From a virus, in IMG/VR virus record IMGVR_UViG_3300024343_000009, positions 1-64,000 of that record: a stretch of 64,000 bases of DNA. One strand, 5' to 3'. The notes beneath the pieces are model-generated. The model ran no database searches, was not told the DNA's origin, and worked only from the letters and a program-made list of their open reading frames with translations. Shown here piece after piece: positions 53,691-63,670 of the stretch. The translations under genes were made by a program, and so were the position numbers. Position 1 is the first letter of the stretch. Every line of letters begins with the position of its first letter.

Positions 53691-53761
53691 TTCTCACTCG
53701 TCCAACGGCAGGACATCGCCCTTTGGAGGCGAGAATCGTGGTTCGAATCCATGGTGAGAAG
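53691..53761 (+). tRNA. tRNA-Gln(TTG)
   Basis: Acceptor TTCTCAC/GTGAGAA; anticodon stem TCGCC/GGCGA, loop CTTTGGA, anticodon TTG. The D-arm TCGTCCAACGGCAGGA is typical of tRNA-Gln. Starts 1 nt after the preceding tRNA. Confidence 0.9.
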
Positions 53762-53777
53762 CAAAGAAAGGAAATGG

Positions 53778-53783
53778 TATACT
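53778..53783 (+). promoter_or_regulatory. -10 box (TATACT) of leaderless dps
   Basis: TATACT ends 6 nt before ATG 53790. No convincing -35; the expected position falls in the end of tRNA-Gln. Spacing to the ATG is identical to the other leaderless genes. Confidence 0.55.
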
Positions 53784-53789
53784 ATTAAC

Positions 53790-54233
53790 ATGGATATTAT
53801 TTCTAAGATAAGACAACTACAATCTAGTTCTTTTGTATTTTATACAAAAGCACACGGTTATCACTGGAATGTAGAGGGGGTTCTATTTAAAGAACTTCAC
53901 GCATTCTTTAAGGAAATATACGAAGATGTATTTGAATCAATTGATACTTATGCTGAATGGTCAAGAAAACTTAATTCACCAGCTGTTTTTCAGATTGACG
54001 AGATCTTGCAAAATTCAAATATAAAGTATGATTTTCCAACAAACTCACCACTAGAGATGATGAGAAATTTATTTGATTCAAATTCACAAATTATAAATGA
54101 CTTAAAAGATGGGTTTGCTATGGCAAACTCTTTAAATGAACAAGGCCTTGCAAACTTTTTTGCAGAAAGAATTGATAAACATCAGTTCTGGTCATGGCAA
54201 TTGTCAGCCTCATTAAAGACATCAGTAAACTAA
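53790..54233 (+). CDS. dps: Dps-like ferritin (DNA-binding protein from starved cells)
   Basis: 147 residues from ATG 53790; the open frame extends upstream into tRNA-Gln but the -10 box fixes this start. The ferroxidase ligands of Dps are present and correctly spaced: His25 (H-W-N), His37, Asp52 and Glu56. A four-helix bundle is expected. Dps binds DNA and oxidises Fe(II), protecting DNA from peroxide. In a phage it could protect or compact DNA, or sequester iron. No Lys-rich DNA-binding tail is seen. Confidence 0.82.
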   Translation: MDIISKIRQLQSSSFVFYTKAHGYHWNVEGVLFKELHAFFKEIYEDVFESIDTYAEWSRKLNSPAVFQIDEILQNSNIKYDFPTNSPLEMMRNLFDSNSQIINDLKDGFAMANSLNEQGLANFFAERIDKHQFWSWQLSASLKTSVN

Positions 54234-54252: not shown

Positions 54253-54864
54253 ATGGCAGCAGAACAAGGATCAGCAGCAAGACTAATAGAAGTAGCACTA
54301 GCTGAAGTTGGAACTATTGAAGGACCAAAGGACAATGAAACAAAATATGGAAAGTTTACAAAGGCAAACTTTCAGCCATGGTGTGGTTCATTTGTTATGT
54401 GGTGTGCAGATCAAGCAGGGGTAAAGGTTCCTAATACAGTCTATACACCAGCAGGAGCACAAGCATTTATTAAAGCGGGAACATGGCAGATGGCAGAAAC
54501 AGCTACACCAGAACCAGGCGATATTGCCTATTTTGATTTCCCATCAGACGGCGTCGATAGAATTTCTCACGTAGGAATCGTTGTTGCAGTAAATGCAGAC
54601 GGAACTGTAGATGTTGTAGAAGGAAACACTTCTTCAGATAAGAAGGGCGATCAAAGAAATGGCGGAGAGTGTTGCCTTAAGAATCGTGCTTACAAGAAGA
54701 AGAACGGATCAAAGCTTCGTAGAAGTCAGATCGTAGGCATTGTAGGATTTGGCAGACCAGCATTTGGCAAGCCTGTAGCTAAGACAGCAGCAGCACCTGT
54801 AAAGAAGGCAGCCCCTGTAAAGAAGGCGGCTCCTGTAAAAAAGGCCGCAGTAAAGAAGAAGTAA
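54253..54864 (+). CDS. CHAP-type endolysin with Lys/Ala/Pro repeat tail
   Basis: 203 residues after AGGAGA. Cys44 in Q-P-W-C-G-S-F-V and His106 in I-S-H-V-G-I-V are the catalytic pair of CHAP/NlpC-P60 amidase-endopeptidases; V-V-E-G-N follows. The last ~35 residues are repeats of A-A-P-V-K-K, a histone-H1-like basic tail that may bind anionic wall polymers. There is no signal peptide, so export needs the holin (59230). It is followed without a gap by a nuclease. Confidence 0.85.
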   Translation: MAAEQGSAARLIEVALAEVGTIEGPKDNETKYGKFTKANFQPWCGSFVMWCADQAGVKVPNTVYTPAGAQAFIKAGTWQMAETATPEPGDIAYFDFPSDGVDRISHVGIVVAVNADGTVDVVEGNTSSDKKGDQRNGGECCLKNRAYKKKNGSKLRRSQIVGIVGFGRPAFGKPVAKTAAAPVKKAAPVKKAAPVKKAAVKKK

Positions 54865-56033: not shown

Positions 56034-56046
56034 ATATCCAATATGC

Positions 56047-56107: not shown

Positions 56108-56527
56108 ATGGTAAACGCACTAACCCTGGATCTTTTTAGAGATCCTTTTTTTATTGGTTTTAATCGTGAAATGGAAAGAATGGCACATGTTCATCAGGCT
56201 GCAACACGCCAAACATATCCACCATACGATGTATTAAAGCTAGACGAAGATACATATCAGGTATCAATTGCAGTAGCAGGATTCACAAGAAGCGATATTG
56301 ATGTTTCAGTAGATAACGGAACACTTATTGTTAAGGGTGAAATCACAGAAGTTACAGACGGTGAATATCTACATAAAGGTATTGCTGCACGTAAGTTCAC
56401 TAGAACATTTGGGCTAGGTGAATATATGGAAGTAACTGGAGCTTCAATCGAAGATGGAATGTTAAATATCAATGTAGATAGAATTATTCCAGAAGAAAAG
56501 AAGCCAAAGATCATTAAGATCAAATAG
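56108..56527 (+). CDS. Small heat shock protein (Hsp20/alpha-crystallin)
   Basis: 139 residues. Alpha-crystallin domain from ~35: P-Y-D-V-L-K-L-D-E-D-T-Y-Q-V-S-I-A-V-A-G-F and L-I-V-K-G-E-I are hallmark strands; R-K-F-T-R-T-F-G-L-G follows. A C-terminal K-I-I-K-I-K resembles the I-x-I tail. Acts as an ATP-independent holdase, probably during virion or replication protein folding; phages of planktonic bacteria often carry it. Confidence 0.9.
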   Translation: MVNALTLDLFRDPFFIGFNREMERMAHVHQAATRQTYPPYDVLKLDEDTYQVSIAVAGFTRSDIDVSVDNGTLIVKGEITEVTDGEYLHKGIAARKFTRTFGLGEYMEVTGASIEDGMLNINVDRIIPEEKKPKIIKIK

Positions 56528-56785: not shown

Positions 56786-56794
56786 CCTCAATGG

Positions 56795-56800
56795 TATAAT
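56795..56800 (+). promoter_or_regulatory. -10 box before the PA14 protein gene
   Basis: TATAAT; no clear -35. The leader (about 56807-56837) carries an imperfect palindrome GCAAGCAAATTGTTTGC (56809-56825) and then TAGGAG before the TTG start. Confidence 0.45.
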
Positions 56801-56837
56801 TAACTAAGCAAGCAAATTGTTTGCGTAGGAGCCATAG

Positions 56838-59006
56838 TTGAAAAAGAATAGGTTATTTAGAATAACAGCATCCATAATGCTTGCATTTGGATGGCTTTTT
56901 ATGTCTCCCGCAGCTGGCGATGATCCGCTAACAGTAGCAGCAAAACAAATTGAAAATTTAAATTCAGCAGTAGATAAGCTTGATTACAAAGAAGGCTTAA
57001 TAGATTTAATTGACATAGCGGAAAATAAGTTTATGTACGCTAAAAATCTTAAGGATGTTAGAGATACAGCAATTGTAGACTACCAAGATGCGGTGGAAGC
57101 AGAAGAATTAGCGTTAGAAGAAGTAAATATCGCTCAGTCAAATGTAGATGAGCAAACAGCCCTAGCATCCTTAGCTCTTGAAAATAAAAATAATGCTCTT
57201 AATGATAAGAATGATGCACAAGATGTACTTGATTTAGCCAATATAAATCTTCAAACAGCACAATCAAATATGCAATCTGCTAGTGGGACAGGTCTTCAAT
57301 ATACAGTATATAATCTAACCAGAACATGGCCAAGCATAGCAACTCCAAGTGGTGTGATTTGTTCTGGCACTTGGAATTCTAGTTCTATGAACCTACCAGT
57401 TTGCGGTAATAGATATGAAAATATAATTGTTAAGTTTACTGGACAAATTACAGTCCCATCATGGTTTACAACAGTAGCATTTGCAGGATACACAGATGAT
57501 GGTTTTAGAATGTTTATTAATGGAAATCTTGCAGTTAACAACTGGGTAGAGCAAGGGGCAAGATGGAGTGCTTGGTCTCCAACATATAATGTAAGTGAAG
57601 ACAAGACTTTAGATGTAGAGATATGGTGGTATAACGGAGGAGGTCCAGGATCGTACCATCTTGGCTGGACAATTCCTGGTGGAATGACTGGTGCAGGATG
57701 TGACTATGCTGGAAATCCAAGAGTATGGGGACAAAATTTTAGTTGTAATTTAAATACATTCTCATCTGGGTCAGGACCAACACAGGCACAAATAGATGCC
57801 TACAACCAAGCACTTGAAACAAGAAATGCAGCACAGCAAGACTATAATAATGCCTCAGCAGAATATAATGATAAACTAAATGTATATAATCAACAGGTTG
57901 CAGTACTAGACTCATTAAATCAAACATTAACTAATAAAGAGTCTGAGTATGATAACGCAGTAAATGATACAGCAAATGCTTTGTCTGAAAAGAATAGTGC
58001 CATAAATGATTTTAATAATGCAGTCAATGATGTCAATGGTGCAATTGATGAAGCATGGCGTTACTATGATGAGCAATCACAAAGAGAAATTCAAAGAGCA
58101 ATTGCTCAAGCAGCAGCCAATGCTGCAGCAAACCAACCTAAGCCAGAGCCAAAACCAACTGTTGAACCAGACAAGCCAAAGCCTTCTTCACCACCAACAG
58201 AGAAGCCAGAGCCAAAGCCAACTAACAATACTGCTACAGAAGAGCCAGGACCAAAGCCAACGCAACCAGGTCCAAAGCCAACACAGCCAGAAGATCCTGC
58301 ACCAAAGCCAGAACCTACAGAAAAGCCAAAACCAGAAGATCCTAAGCCAACACCAGCTCCAACACCTGAAGTAAAGCCAGAACCCACACCAGAGCCTTCT
58401 GCCGAGCCTTCTCCAGAACCTAAGCCATTGCCAAGACCAGATTTTAAACCAGCAGAGAATATTGATCCAGTCATTAAGGATGCAGAGTTAGCAGCACTTA
58501 TTCCAGAAAAAGGTACGGGGAATGCAGAAGATTTATCTGGCGTTATTGCTAATCTTACAAGTAAAGATAATAAATTAGTTAAGCTTTCTCCAGAACAAAC
58601 AGCAGCGGTTAGTCAAACACTTAAGTCTTTAACACAAGAAGCAAAATTAGAAGTTGCAAAAGATCTTGGAATTTCTGCAGGAGAGGTTTCAAAGGTGGCA
58701 GAAATAATGAAATCAAATCCTGCAGTCGCAGCAGCATTTGTTGAGTTTGCAGATAGAGCAGGAGAAGCAGGGGATACCCCAATGCCATTTACATTAGCAG
58801 ATGCAACAACAGAAGTACAAACAGAAGCATTCTTAGCAGACCCGCTTGGAACAGTATTTGCGGTGGATCCTATAGAACTATTATCTAATTTTTCTGAGTT
58901 AGGTATGGATATGACAGATGATCAGAGAGAAAAAGCACAAGAAGTAATTGTCCCAGTGGTCATTGCATCACAAATTGCAGGGGCAGTAATAAGGAGGAAC
59001 AGATGA
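56838..59006 (+). CDS. Exported PA14-domain, coiled-coil, proline-rich protein with C-terminal anchor
   Basis: 722 residues from a TTG start with TAGGAG. Order: a signal peptide or anchor (L-F-R-I-T-A-S-I-M-L-A-F-G-W-L-F) at 5-25; a helical coiled coil to ~150; a PA14-like beta barrel at ~155-305 (V-A-F-A-G-Y-T-D-D-G-F-R-M-F-I-N-G, then W-W-Y-N-G-G-G-P-G); a second coiled coil to ~425; ~100 residues of P-K-P-E-P repeats; a helical domain; and a final hydrophobic V-I-V-P-V-V-I-A-S-Q-I-A-G-A-V with R-R-N-R. This reads as a wall-spanning surface protein with a sugar-binding barrel. It overlaps the first holin-like gene. Roles in superinfection exclusion, envelope disruption or virion attachment are all open. 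Confidence 0.78.
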   Translation: MKKNRLFRITASIMLAFGWLFMSPAAGDDPLTVAAKQIENLNSAVDKLDYKEGLIDLIDIAENKFMYAKNLKDVRDTAIVDYQDAVEAEELALEEVNIAQSNVDEQTALASLALENKNNALNDKNDAQDVLDLANINLQTAQSNMQSASGTGLQYTVYNLTRTWPSIATPSGVICSGTWNSSSMNLPVCGNRYENIIVKFTGQITVPSWFTTVAFAGYTDDGFRMFINGNLAVNNWVEQGARWSAWSPTYNVSEDKTLDVEIWWYNGGGPGSYHLGWTIPGGMTGAGCDYAGNPRVWGQNFSCNLNTFSSGSGPTQAQIDAYNQALETRNAAQQDYNNASAEYNDKLNVYNQQVAVLDSLNQTLTNKESEYDNAVNDTANALSEKNSAINDFNNAVNDVNGAIDEAWRYYDEQSQREIQRAIAQAAANAAANQPKPEPKPTVEPDKPKPSSPPTEKPEPKPTNNTATEEPGPKPTQPGPKPTQPEDPAPKPEPTEKPKPEDPKPTPAPTPEVKPEPTPEPSAEPSPEPKPLPRPDFKPAENIDPVIKDAELAALIPEKGTGNAEDLSGVIANLTSKDNKLVKLSPEQTAAVSQTLKSLTQEAKLEVAKDLGISAGEVSKVAEIMKSNPAVAAAFVEFADRAGEAGDTPMPFTLADATTEVQTEAFLADPLGTVFAVDPIELLSNFSELGMDMTDDQREKAQEVIVPVVIASQIAGAVIRRNR

Positions 59007-59230
59007 AGATAATCAAAAAAGCATTTTCTTTAATCGGTAAAGCTTTAAAAGGATTAATTAAATGGTTTAAAGATGCAGGAATGGAATTAATTGCACAAGC
59101 ATTCACCCTCCTTGGCTTCTTTATTGCATGGTTAACATTAACTGGATCAGCCAGAGATATAGTTGGAATTGCCGTACTGGCAACTACAGTTATTTGGCTA
59201 ATAACAATCCCGTTAAGAAAGGATAAATAA
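59003..59230 (+). CDS. Small membrane protein with basic amphipathic N-terminus (75 aa)
   Basis: ATGA overlap with the PA14 gene. K-K-A-F-S-L-I-G-K-A-L-K-G-L-I-K-W-F-K is an amphipathic basic helix, followed by two transmembrane helices (L-L-G-F-F-I-A-W-L-T-L and G-I-A-V-L-A-T-T-V-I-W-L-I) and a basic end. Holin- or antiholin-like. The next start overlaps its stop. Confidence 0.7.
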   Translation: MKIIKKAFSLIGKALKGLIKWFKDAGMELIAQAFTLLGFFIAWLTLTGSARDIVGIAVLATTVIWLITIPLRKDK

Positions 59231-59520
59231 TGGCAAAAGCGTATATAGAAGAGCCAACACAGGTTGGAAGCGGAGCAATTGCAAGCATAAATAATATATT
59301 TATGAGAATTGTTGCTGTATTTGCAGCATCAGGACTTTCAGTGATTGGAGCAGGAGCAGTGGTTGGAATTGAAACCTACAAGGCTGTGATCCTTGCTGGA
59401 ACATTAGGCGTTGCAACTGTTGTTGAAAAGCTAGCCCGTGGATTCCTAGATGATGGAAAGCTTACCGTTGCTGAGATCAATGCAGCTTTTTCAGCAGTAG
59501 ATAAAAAAGCGGCTAAGTGA
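59230..59520 (+). CDS. Holin (actinophage type)
   Basis: 96 residues with two hydrophobic helices: F-M-R-I-V-A-V-F-A-A-S-G-L-S-V-I-G-A-G-A and Y-K-A-V-I-L-A-G-T-L-G-V-A-T-V-V, then a polar end with F-L-D-D-G-K-L-T-V-A-E-I-N. That last motif is typical of holins from mycobacterial and related phages. It would let the CHAP endolysin reach the wall. Confidence 0.82.
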   Translation: MAKAYIEEPTQVGSGAIASINNIFMRIVAVFAASGLSVIGAGAVVGIETYKAVILAGTLGVATVVEKLARGFLDDGKLTVAEINAAFSAVDKKAAK

Positions 59521-59814: not shown

Positions 59815-59844
59815 TTGACAGAGCCGTAGTTTTTACTGTATAAT
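59815..59844 (+). promoter_or_regulatory. Promoter of tRNA-Asn
   Basis: TTGACA (59815-59820), 18 nt, TATAAT (59839-59844). Perfect hexamers, with a large inverted repeat centred on the -10. Confidence 0.8.
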
Positions 59845-59862: not shown

Positions 59863-59874
59863 TTTCTGCTTTTT
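59852..59874 (+). terminator. UACG-tetraloop hairpin with T-run just before tRNA-Asn
   Basis: AGAAAC (59852-59857), TACG loop, GTTTCT (59862-59867), then GCTTTTT. C(UACG)G is an exceptionally stable tetraloop. It begins at the expected transcription start, so it may be an attenuator or a 5' hairpin removed during tRNA processing. Confidence 0.6.
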
Positions 59875-59944
59875 GGCCCTTAGCTCAGCGGCAGAGCGGG
59901 AAGCTGTTAACTTCTAGGTCCCTGGTTCGATCCCAGGAGGGCCA
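59875..59944 (+). tRNA. tRNA-Asn(GTT)
   Basis: Acceptor GGCCCTT/GAGGGCC; anticodon loop CTGTTAA, anticodon GTT (59906-59908); T-arm CCTGG-TTCGATC-CCAGG. Separate from the five-tRNA cluster, with its own promoter. Confidence 0.93.
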
Positions 59945-59982
59945 GCAAGATCATCTAGGCGGACTTACTAGATAGGAAAGAA

Positions 59983-60216
59983 ATGCTTAATCTTACACTA
60001 AAGGGTGTAGAGGTCTTCATGGAAAGATCAAAGCATAGCAAGCAAGATTCATATTGGGAAAACTATGACTTACTAATATGGAAAAAAGATCCAGGCGGCT
60101 TTACAAATGTAAAGGGAATGTTTCGAAAAGATTCATGGGGTATTACAGAGAGAATACCAGTAAACGAAAACGGAATTTGGAAGTTGCCTAAGCATTATGT
60201 CAAATATTTTAAATGA
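59983..60216 (+). CDS. Hypothetical protein (77 aa)
   Basis: Starts after AGGAAAG. Basic and aromatic: W-E-N-Y-D-L-L-I-W-K-K-D-P-G-G-F-T-N-V-K and W-K-L-P-K-H-Y-V-K-Y-F-K. Strand-rich; ends inside the WhiB gene by 20 bp. Unknown role. Confidence 0.55.
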   Translation: MLNLTLKGVEVFMERSKHSKQDSYWENYDLLIWKKDPGGFTNVKGMFRKDSWGITERIPVNENGIWKLPKHYVKYFK

Positions 60217-60514
60217 ACTTGGCGTAGATGAAGATGACCTTGACTGGTATCATCTAGCAGCATGCAGAGGCCTTGATACAAATTTATTTTATGATAAGTA
60301 TGAAGCTGATCCAAATATAGCAAAGAGCATTGATGAAGCATGCCTTAGTTGTCCAGTTTCAAAAATGTGTTATGAGTTTGGTGTCAGCAACAGTGAGCAG
60401 GGAGTATGGGGCGGAATATATTTAAACACGGGAGAAGTAGACAGGCCAAGAAATGTACATAAGACACAGGAAGTATGGAAAAGGATAAAGGCTAAAAATG
60501 GAATTCATAAATAA
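60197..60514 (+). CDS. WhiB-family iron-sulfur transcription regulator
   Basis: 105 residues. Cys23 in A-A-C-R-G, Cys49, Cys52 and Cys58 in C-L-S-C-P-V-S-K-M-C ligate the 4Fe-4S cluster, and G-V-W-G-G at 69-73 is the sigma-contacting turn. WhiB proteins are restricted to Actinobacteria and their phages, which fixes the host phylum. It likely redirects host sigma factor or blocks host genes. Confidence 0.93.
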   Translation: MSNILNELGVDEDDLDWYHLAACRGLDTNLFYDKYEADPNIAKSIDEACLSCPVSKMCYEFGVSNSEQGVWGGIYLNTGEVDRPRNVHKTQEVWKRIKAKNGIHK

Positions 60515-61263: not shown

Positions 61264-61560
61264 ATGGATACAACTGCCCTAATATTAACTATAGCAGCAT
61301 CACTATTGAGCGGATTAGCGACAGGTGTAGTTGCTAATTTTAGGGACCACAAAAAAGAAATTAAGCGTAGGGTTGAGAAAGAACAAGATAACCTTAAGCT
61401 TGATTTAAAGGATCTCCAGATTAAATTGTATAAGGTTGAAAAAGACCTAGACGACTGGAAGGCTAAGTATTACGAAGCCCTTCAAGAACTAATTGAAGTT
61501 AAGGGTGAATTAGAGGAAACTCTAATTAGATTAACACATATCGCTCATCACGAGGACTAG
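61264..61560 (+). CDS. Membrane-anchored coiled-coil protein (98 aa)
   Basis: N-terminal transmembrane helix (A-L-I-L-T-I-A-A-S-L-L-S-G-L-A-T-G) then one long charged coiled coil (K-R-R-V-E-K-E-Q-D-N-L-K-L-D-L-K). The topology resembles an inner-membrane spanin or an antiholin-type regulator. In Actinobacteria without a classical outer membrane, its role is unclear. Confidence 0.6.
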   Translation: MDTTALILTIAASLLSGLATGVVANFRDHKKEIKRRVEKEQDNLKLDLKDLQIKLYKVEKDLDDWKAKYYEALQELIEVKGELEETLIRLTHIAHHED

Positions 61561-61592: not shown

Positions 61593-62150
61593 ATGACCTG
61601 CATAGTTGCCATTGCCCAAAACGGTGTCGTTTACATGGGATCTGATCACGCCGCCTCAGACGATAAGTCTGGATGGATACTTTCACGCAAAGAGCCAAAG
61701 TGTTTTAAGGTTGGCCAATACGCTGTTGCATTTACTGACTCATTTAGAATGGGGCAGATACTTCAATACATGTGGACCCCACCAAAGTATACACCAACAA
61801 AAACTAACTCAGGTTTAGATAAGTTTATGAGAACTAAGTTTATTGATTCAGTTAAGACTGCATTTAAAGAAAACGGATACGGAAGTATTGGGTCATCATC
61901 TGAAGAGGACACGGGTGGAATATTTATTGTTGGTTTATGTGGAAGAATTTTTACAATAGACGAAGACTTTCACGTAGGTGAGAATGTTGTGAATTACATG
62001 GCAGAAGGAAGTGGTGGCCAAATAGCTTTAGGAGCATTGCATGCCACAAAACATCAAAAGAACCCTAGACTACGCATTAAGGCAGCATTAGAAGCAGCAA
62101 CTGAATTTAATATGAGCGTGGCAGCCCCCTATACATACATTCAAGTTTAA
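61593..62150 (+). CDS. Proteasome-beta-like Ntn hydrolase (185 aa)
   Basis: M-T-C-I-V-A-I-A-Q-N-G-V-V-Y-M-G-S-D follows the pattern of 20S proteasome beta/HslV subunits: after Met removal Thr2 would be the nucleophile, then G-S-D-x-A-A-S. Other matches are F-K-V-G-Q-Y-A-V-A-F-T-D-S-F-R, and a G-S-G-G-Q-I-A-L-G-A-L segment with helices. Lys in the R-K-E-P-K-C region could be the catalytic base. It may act as a protease of its own or interfere with the host proteasome. Function is inference; the fold call is fairly strong. Confidence 0.72.
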   Translation: MTCIVAIAQNGVVYMGSDHAASDDKSGWILSRKEPKCFKVGQYAVAFTDSFRMGQILQYMWTPPKYTPTKTNSGLDKFMRTKFIDSVKTAFKENGYGSIGSSSEEDTGGIFIVGLCGRIFTIDEDFHVGENVVNYMAEGSGGQIALGALHATKHQKNPRLRIKAALEAATEFNMSVAAPYTYIQV

Positions 62151-62743: not shown

Positions 62744-63670
62744 ATGAATAAAAAAATAACTACGGCTTTTGTAGCCTTACTACTTGTTGTTCCAACAGCA
62801 TCACATGCTGCATTAAAGAACACATCGCTTGAACCAACGTTAGCAATCCTAGATACTGCGATTGACACATCCTTGCCATCATTTAAGGGCAAGATTATTC
62901 AAGAAGTTTGTCTTTTAGAGCGTGGCCCATGTCCAAATGGTAGCACTTATATGGAGGGTCCAGGGGCTGCATCAATGCCTGCTAACTTCATTACTAAAAA
63001 TGGTTTTGATCACGGTACACAAATGACATACCTTGCTTTAGCAAATAACCCTAACATGAAGGTTTTGTTTATTAGAATTATTGGCAACAATCCAGATGGT
63101 ATCCGTCAGGTTGCAACAGAGGCTGCTGTATATAATGCTTTGCAATGGGTTATTGATAATAAGGATAAGTATAATATTAAAGCAGTAACAATGGCACAAG
63201 CATCAAGCAACTGGGTTGCTGGATCAGATTATTGCCCAAAGACTCCAATTACTCAATCAAAGATCCAAACACTTGTTGCAAGCAACATTCCAGTATTTTT
63301 ACCAGCAGGAAATGACTTTAACTATGAAAAGTTGCGTTGGCCTGCTTGCTTGCCAGAATCAATCGCAGTTGGAGCAACAATGCCAACTAAAGCAGTGGCA
63401 GTGTACACAAACTATGATCCAAAACTAATTGATTTCTTTGCACTTGGAACTACAACAACGTATGGTCCAGGAAATGTAAAGTTACCAATTGCAGGAACAT
63501 CAGCATCAATTCAAGCTGCTGCTGCATCATGGATTGCTGTATCTTCTGCTAAACCATCTTTAACATACAATCAGGTATATGACTTGATTTCTAAAACTTC
63601 TACGCCTACAAGTAATTCAAAAATTAAGGGCGGTAAGTTGATTAATCTAGAGGGAGCACTAAATGGCTGA
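62744..63670 (+). CDS. Exported subtilisin-like (S8) serine protease
   Basis: 308 residues. Signal peptide: K-K-I-T-T-A-F-V-A-L-L-L-V-V-P-T-A-S-H-A, cleavage near residue 22. Catalytic residues Asp37 (A-I-L-D-T-A-I-D), His90 (D-H-G-T-Q-M), oxyanion Asn190 (P-A-G-N-D) and Ser253 (G-T-S-A-S) are all present and in order, so the enzyme looks active. There is no obvious pro-domain (mature start is directly at the catalytic core), and the end is short. It should act outside the membrane, in the wall or medium. Confidence 0.88.
   Translation: MNKKITTAFVALLLVVPTASHAALKNTSLEPTLAILDTAIDTSLPSFKGKIIQEVCLLERGPCPNGSTYMEGPGAASMPANFITKNGFDHGTQMTYLALANNPNMKVLFIRIIGNNPDGIRQVATEAAVYNALQWVIDNKDKYNIKAVTMAQASSNWVAGSDYCPKTPITQSKIQTLVASNIPVFLPAGNDFNYEKLRWPACLPESIAVGATMPTKAVAVYTNYDPKLIDFFALGTTTTYGPGNVKLPIAGTSASIQAAAASWIAVSSAKPSLTYNQVYDLISKTSTPTSNSKIKGGKLINLEGALNG

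Follow-up and report, generated by a model that had tools for sequence, protein, structure and literature searches.

Organization of the Locus

The window analyzed here is a 64,000-nucleotide stretch (positions 1 to 64,000) of the 71,570-base IMG/VR virus record IMGVR_UViG_3300024343_000009. At 56838–59520, three genes lie head to tail in a coupled operon, where A and B overlap by four bases (ATGA) and B and C by a single base (TAATG). An initial annotation, made from the letters alone, had described an exported protein coupled to two membrane proteins at these coordinates, and all of the features that it listed were confirmed by sequence. The genes and associated elements are as follows:

54253–54864, plus strand: CHAP endolysin in the region of A-B-C, adjoining A-B in many relatives
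56838–59006, plus strand: gene A, 722 aa, TTG start, an exported PA14/coiled-coil/Pro-rich protein
58991–58997, plus strand: AAGGAGG ribosome-binding site of B, within the end of A
59003–59230, plus strand: gene B, 75 aa, with a basic N-terminal helix and two membrane helices, the partner of A
59230–59520, plus strand: gene C, 96 aa, a holin-like membrane protein

The hosts of these phages are probably freshwater actinobacteria, as inferred from a WhiB-like gene (60197–60514, identified by sequence), a GC content of 38%, and the Actinomycetia host predicted for the related phage DSL-LC01 (hereafter LC01; PMC10611076). They are also probably monoderm, without an outer membrane.

Several other genes lie close to the operon, including those for a Dps/ferritin-like protein (53751–54233), an HSP20 chaperone (56108–56527), and a weakly proteasome-like protein (61593–62150); the HSP20 gene and the gene at 61593 recur near A in related phages. 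Downstream of C is a tRNA-Asn (GTT) at 59874–59946, preceded by a full match to TTGACA-18-TATAAT at 59815–59844. The 98-aa product of the gene at 61264–61560 combines a coiled coil with a single membrane helix at its N-terminus. It shows weak similarity to the Rz-like spanins of phrog_739 (E = 0.016) and has an i-spanin-like layout in a phage of a probably monoderm host. Some 3 kb downstream of the operon, at 62744–63670, is a subtilase (S8) with a signal peptide, i.e., an exported phage protease, whose relatives are found near A in many loci. Finally, loci of the other leader classes (see below) carry an exported 368-aa protein between terL and A (L009:4783–5889; about 145 loci) that had no Pfam or PHROG match. 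It looks like a host-type surface-layer protein, and if so, remodeling of the host surface by these phages may be more extensive.

Architecture of the A Protein

The A protein is a linear series of domains, all encoded on the plus strand:

56838–56918: signal peptide, residues 1–27, with a basic start, a hydrophobic core, and small residues before DDP; conserved in relatives
56991–57275: coiled coil 1, residues 52–146, an AlphaFold2 helix (pLDDT about 95) with heptads, its length covarying with that of coil 2
57294–57746: PA14 lectin-like head, residues 153–303, from Pfam, fold, and PDB profile matches
57783–58130: coiled coil 2, residues 316–431, an AlphaFold2 helix with heptads and covarying length
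58134–58451: Pro/Lys/Glu-rich spacer, residues 433–538, from composition and low pLDDT
58470–58907: helical membrane-proximal domain, residues 545–690, among the most conserved parts of A
58935–58991: C-terminal membrane helix, residues 700–718, from hydropathy, followed by RRNR

An AlphaFold model of the whole protein was weak (pLDDT 65, pTM 0.39), with two helices, 52–146 and 316–431, predicted at a pLDDT of about 95 on either side of a beta domain at 153–284. In both helices, the hydrophobicity of heptad positions a and d exceeded that of any of 2000 shuffled versions. Structure comparison matched the beta domain to PA14 lectins, specifically to a Marinomonas RTX adhesin and, more weakly, to Flo5 and Epa. 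At the sequence level, the Pfam PA14 model scored the window's A protein at 21.8 bits (E = 1.7e-4), just below the cut-off of 24 bits, while a genome search gave 24.8 bits, and 14 of 15 related records surpassed the cut-off. When a profile of 26 relatives was searched against the PDB, the best match of the head was to RsgI-type anti-sigma factors and their pair of PA14 domains (2.5e-10). Profile match and fold together place the head in the PA14 family. PA14 lectins bind sugar at a Ca2+ site having two adjacent Asp residues. The motifs TDDG(F) and WWYNGGG occur in all 130 of the PA14-type A proteins counted, DDG being common in PA14 domains generally.

The spacer contains 41 Pro, 15 Lys, and 15 Glu in its 106 residues. 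No lipobox cysteine is present near the signal peptide, the first Cys being residue 175, and no LPXTG sortase-anchor motif precedes the C-terminal helix in the conserved C-terminus of A. The signal sequence, the two coiled coils around a PA14-like barrel, the Pro-Lys spacer, and the hydrophobic C-terminal helix with its basic end had all been proposed in the initial annotation and are all borne out. In sum, A can with good confidence be regarded as having an exported, membrane-anchored, sugar-binding architecture. Its signal peptide is predicted to be cleaved, and judging from its sequence, the protein probably crosses the cell wall.

The Partner Genes and Their Conservation

By sequence and hydropathy, B consists of two hydrophobic stretches and, at its N-terminus, a basic one, in keeping with its earlier description as a membrane protein with a basic helix that overlaps A by four bases. 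An AAGGAGG, AGGAGG, or AGGAG sequence precedes B in 117 loci. B had also been called holin-like, an assignment that now seems less apt than a role as membrane anchor, given that a second phage lineage carries a B-like module fused to an A-like protein. It is better read as a putative part of A's membrane anchor.

The one-base overlap with C was upheld, but the description of C as a typical holin was not, since its match to the phrog_443 holin family is weak for the window's protein (E = 0.08). The match improves for the C protein of L009 (0.0068) and for the LC01 relative (1.5e-5), and it is through the latter that C can be assigned to a holin family. The best PHROG of C, phrog_26427, is labeled a nuclease, while C and its relatives are small membrane proteins. 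Considering the holin match of the LC01 relative, this label looks wrong for C.

Relatives of A were confirmed at at least 589 IMG/VR stretches. A scan based on B added at least 76 new loci, and in 76 of 76 the conserved end of A lay directly upstream with the four-base overlap. The conserved unit is the pair A-B. Locus counts for the pair derive from the best 80 of each scan and hence describe near relatives; of the 181 loci with enough downstream sequence, A-B is followed by C in 95, by C and an endolysin in 5, by a lipoprotein, a two-helix protein, and an endolysin in 69, and by the lipoprotein and two-helix protein in 12. Stated differently, C is present in 100, the lipoprotein and two-helix protein in 81, and neither in 0. 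The gene order, whose conservation in related genomes had been proposed as a check, is conserved, but its constant unit is A-B, with C replaced in 81 of 181 loci. A pair comprising a small protein with a YRY-C-QDP motif (a lipoprotein in some cases) and a two-helix protein also recurs near endolysins in three phage groups as a lysis-region cassette (e.g., L065:8297–8912, L083:11990–12516, and L264:2834–3300).

A full-length database entry, A0A6J5NKY8 ("PA14 domain containing protein" of an uncultured Caudovirales phage), is 72% identical to A. Among the 50,697 records of a phage collection, no relative of A or of the window's B was found, and C had one, from Actinomycetia phage LC01. A bacterial origin of A was considered and set aside, as one scan of genome contigs yielded nothing beyond a short PA14 match, on a contig from Prolixibacteraceae. 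A-B is a real, conserved, and unusual system of a large freshwater phage family.

The LC01 genome opened a view of the second lineage. It encodes a 944-aa exported protein with a domain related to an alternative form of the A head (BLASTP 1e-10, single comparison) and a C-terminal end that is a B-like module (4e-5, single comparison). Relatives of this protein occur on 21 further contigs and, where the sequence suffices, share a plan of signal peptide, lectin-like heads, Thr-rich linkers, helical domain, and fused B module. In one of them, L260, the B part is instead encoded by its own 58-aa gene, overlapping by ATGA, and phrog_29041 is matched by both this B and the LC01 end. Fusion of B in some phages and coupling in others suggests that A and B act together. 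A more distant search begun from L260 yielded only two new contigs. A C-like gene accompanies most second-lineage loci, either immediately downstream or on the opposite strand, about 3 kb away at most. BLASTP detected no similarity between the C-terminal domains of A in the two lineages, so common descent as whole proteins cannot be claimed.

Exchangeable Heads on a Probable Stalk

Among 140 distinct A proteins, 131 belong to the PA14-head group, and the other nine carry an unrelated domain in the same position. This alternative head was modeled, at modest confidence (pLDDT 62), as a CBM29-like jelly roll, and no sequence match to it was found in the PDB. When head type was mapped onto a tree of the C-terminal domain, nine changes were counted among the nine bearers, a number best taken as an upper guide because the tree was built on a short domain. 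The alternative head also occurs with both start-codon classes described below. Such a pattern is expected if heads move by recombination. Heads of the LC01 lineage include PA14 as well as L-type and SUEL lectins, and all head types of the A family are, from sequences and models, predicted sugar-binding folds.

PA14 occurs once per genome, in A. Receptor mimicry, through a PA14 domain shared with the phage tail, was rejected, there being no second copy of the head in the window and the tested tail proteins carrying FN3. No sequence similarity was detected between the A head and the phage's own tail proteins, and a shared receptor is thus not supported.

The two coils vary in length together. 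Coil 1 and coil 2 measure 117 and 99 residues in 49 proteins, 124 and 106 or 107 in 73, and 108 and 88 in the nine with the alternative head, while two single proteins deviate by two residues. In nine of nine independent pairs, the lengths shifted in concert by one heptad (p = 0.004), although recombination can move the whole block. Such coordinated change would be required of an antiparallel hairpin bearing the head at its tip and, together with the AlphaFold model, supports a view of the A coils as an antiparallel stalk that would carry the head at its end.

Leader and Start Codons of Gene A

What sets the system apart most is the start codon and leader of A, neither of which was mentioned in the initial annotation. 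Two elements precede A:

56792–56800, plus strand: extended -10 box TGGTATAAT of the A operon, at the same position before A in related leaders
56804–56828, plus strand: 5′ leader hairpin that reaches the Shine-Dalgarno sequence AGGAG (56827–56831) with its 3′ arm

The -10 motif alone does not occur above chance in the window, and the case for the box therefore rests on its conserved position. Two of the three classes of leader have the hairpin, which begins close to where the transcript is expected to start; leaders of the third class are very short. An alignment of 31 leaders revealed compensatory double changes at 8 of 10 pairs, and the covariation score was 0.50, versus 0.21 for shuffled alignments and at most 0.15 for slid versions. 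Of all TG-extended -10-like sites in the window, only that of A has such a hairpin directly behind it, the fold at 56044 seemingly being an element of another kind.

Across 208 loci, A starts with TTG in 122, ATT in 53 (counting L081 and its near copies, which read better as TTG), ATA in 20, and ATC in 13, and never with ATG or GTG. In contrast, genes B (133), C (65), WhiB (75), HSP20 (74), and nuclease (75) of A-bearing loci always start with ATG. The terL gene starts with TTG in 69 of the 84 cases counted in related loci, and TTG alone is thus unremarkable in these phages. For the isoleucine codons, 24 of 45 distinct ATT/ATA/ATC contexts lack any in-frame ATG, GTG, or TTG upstream to the stop or within 30 codons. 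The possibility that these codons are internal residues was rejected for the 24, the other 21 being less certain. Relatives of A thus include genes with only a noncanonical start available, the window's own copy starting with TTG.

The conserved noncanonical start, together with a leader hairpin at the ribosome-binding site, suggests that the level of A is held below those of B and C, B being provided with AAGGAGG and ATG. A start that is never ATG and that includes isoleucine codons is a rare natural case of start-codon choice maintained across a gene family.

A Possible Surface Lectin of the Infected Cell

The above features can be combined, tentatively and with a little less than even confidence, into a model in which A-B is a wall-spanning lectin that is displayed on the infected cell and masks its surface glycans. 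Following secretion, A would be held in the membrane by its C-terminal helix and the B hairpin, the Pro-Lys spacer would carry it across the wall, and the exchangeable sugar-binding head would be presented at the tip of the antiparallel coiled-coil stalk. The noncanonical start and leader hairpin would hold A scarce relative to B and C. The head is predicted to bind host surface glycans and mask them, and masking could then block the adsorption of other phages (superinfection exclusion) and keep released progeny from becoming trapped on debris. Such a role fits the swapped lectin heads, the surface display, and the lysis-gene neighborhood. Nonetheless, a low level of A would be surprising if masking had to be complete, and the glycan-masking role itself falls somewhat short of an even chance. 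A search for defense systems with PADLOC gave only weak, compositional matches.

The main rival to masking is that A-B is a lysis effector, a monoderm counterpart of the spanin, which would tether membrane to wall and, with holin and endolysin, break or loosen the surface layer or else tune holin timing. This is rather unlikely but has substance, since a holin-like gene or the lipoprotein and two-helix protein (with or without endolysin) follows A-B in 181 of 181 loci, most second-lineage loci have a C-like gene near the fused A-B, and A-B is translationally coupled to C; weak starts would also suit timed lysis. Exchangeable lectin heads and a large extracellular mass are unneeded for lysis, though, and the hosts are probably monoderm, where holin and endolysin usually suffice. 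The proposal of a Gram-positive spanin equivalent in the initial annotation is weakened by these heads and by the lack of a lipobox in A. Exclusion or release would appear to fit better than a spanin, even if the lysis-gene neighborhood suits masking and a lysis tether alike.

Other roles for A are less probable still. As an adhesin, A would stick infected cells to other cells or particles and give progeny more encounters with new hosts; the structural matches of the head are in fact adhesin lectins (Marinomonas RTX adhesin, Flo5, and Epa), yet the hosts are free-living plankton and the expression of A seems to be kept low, making this improbable. It is highly improbable that A is a virion component, such as a fiber or decoration protein, despite the resemblance of a coiled coil and lectin head to tail fibers and the proximity of terL in many loci. 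A has a signal peptide, a C-terminal membrane helix, and its own promoter, and it is coupled or fused to a membrane module outside the tail genes. The export signal, the membrane helix, and the link to B led to rejection of the idea, and nothing virion-like, which would have undercut the original proposal, was seen in the A sequence. At least as remote is a surface glycan sensor that informs the phage of its host or neighbors through B and C and so times lysis. Here, it is suggestive that, of all PDB sequences, the head best matches the paired PA14 domains of RsgI-type anti-sigma factors (2.5e-10), but few residues of A stay inside and a cytoplasmic signaling domain is absent.

Returning to masking, it is conceivable, if on the whole doubtful, that A-B represents an undescribed general strategy in which many freshwater actinophages display on infected cells a membrane-anchored, wall-spanning lectin with heads that are exchanged much as receptor-binding proteins are, its dose limited by a hairpin and rare starts, isoleucine codons among them, and possibly tied to IF3. 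If true, this would be a new means of regulating infection of, or attachment to, cells that are already infected, and host surface glycans can be predicted directly from the head types. The probable hosts, freshwater actinobacteria, are among the most abundant bacteria of lakes.

Comparison with Known Systems

No published account of the A protein family or the A-B system was found in the papers searched, in agreement with the initial impression that the trio was unfamiliar; the entry A0A6J5NKY8 carries no stated function. Parallels exist for individual features. The small two-helix membrane proteins LysF1a and LysF1b cluster with an endolysin in actinophage lysis cassettes, which can hold two or more holin-like membrane proteins (PMC13056207), but the abstract of that report mentions no A-like protein, and B is tied to A rather than to a lysin. 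Spanins, including u-spanins, share with A an N-terminal export signal, a C-terminal membrane helix, and the vicinity of lysis genes, whereas A is several-fold larger, lacks a lipobox, bears lectin heads, and occurs in phages of hosts probably without an outer membrane. The PA14 lectin domains of the Marinomonas RTX adhesin, the Flo/Epa proteins, and RsgI-type sensors resemble the A head in fold and sequence, but the latter is phage-encoded, inserted between two coils, and tethered with B.

For the start codon, the closest parallels are infC, whose ATT is an IF3-controlled noncanonical start, and, in an actinobacterium, Streptomyces sigR, where IF3 represses a GTC start that determines the ratio of this gene to the next (PMC5472188). 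As with these, A opens a coupled gene pair and has a noncanonical start that likely governs dose and ratio. Unlike them, A is a phage gene, its family uses TTG or isoleucine codons throughout, and a leader hairpin is added, with IF3 control only a candidate. With regard to role, the nearest counterpart is Llp of phage T5, a superinfection-exclusion lipoprotein that prevents phages from adsorbing to infected cells or to fragments of lysed ones (PMC9586334). The likeness lies in the proposed role only, that of a phage protein in the envelope that blocks a receptor and spares progeny, and no sequence relation is claimed. Llp is a small periplasmic lipoprotein directed at one protein receptor in a Gram-negative host, while A would be a large, exported, stalked lectin with swappable heads.
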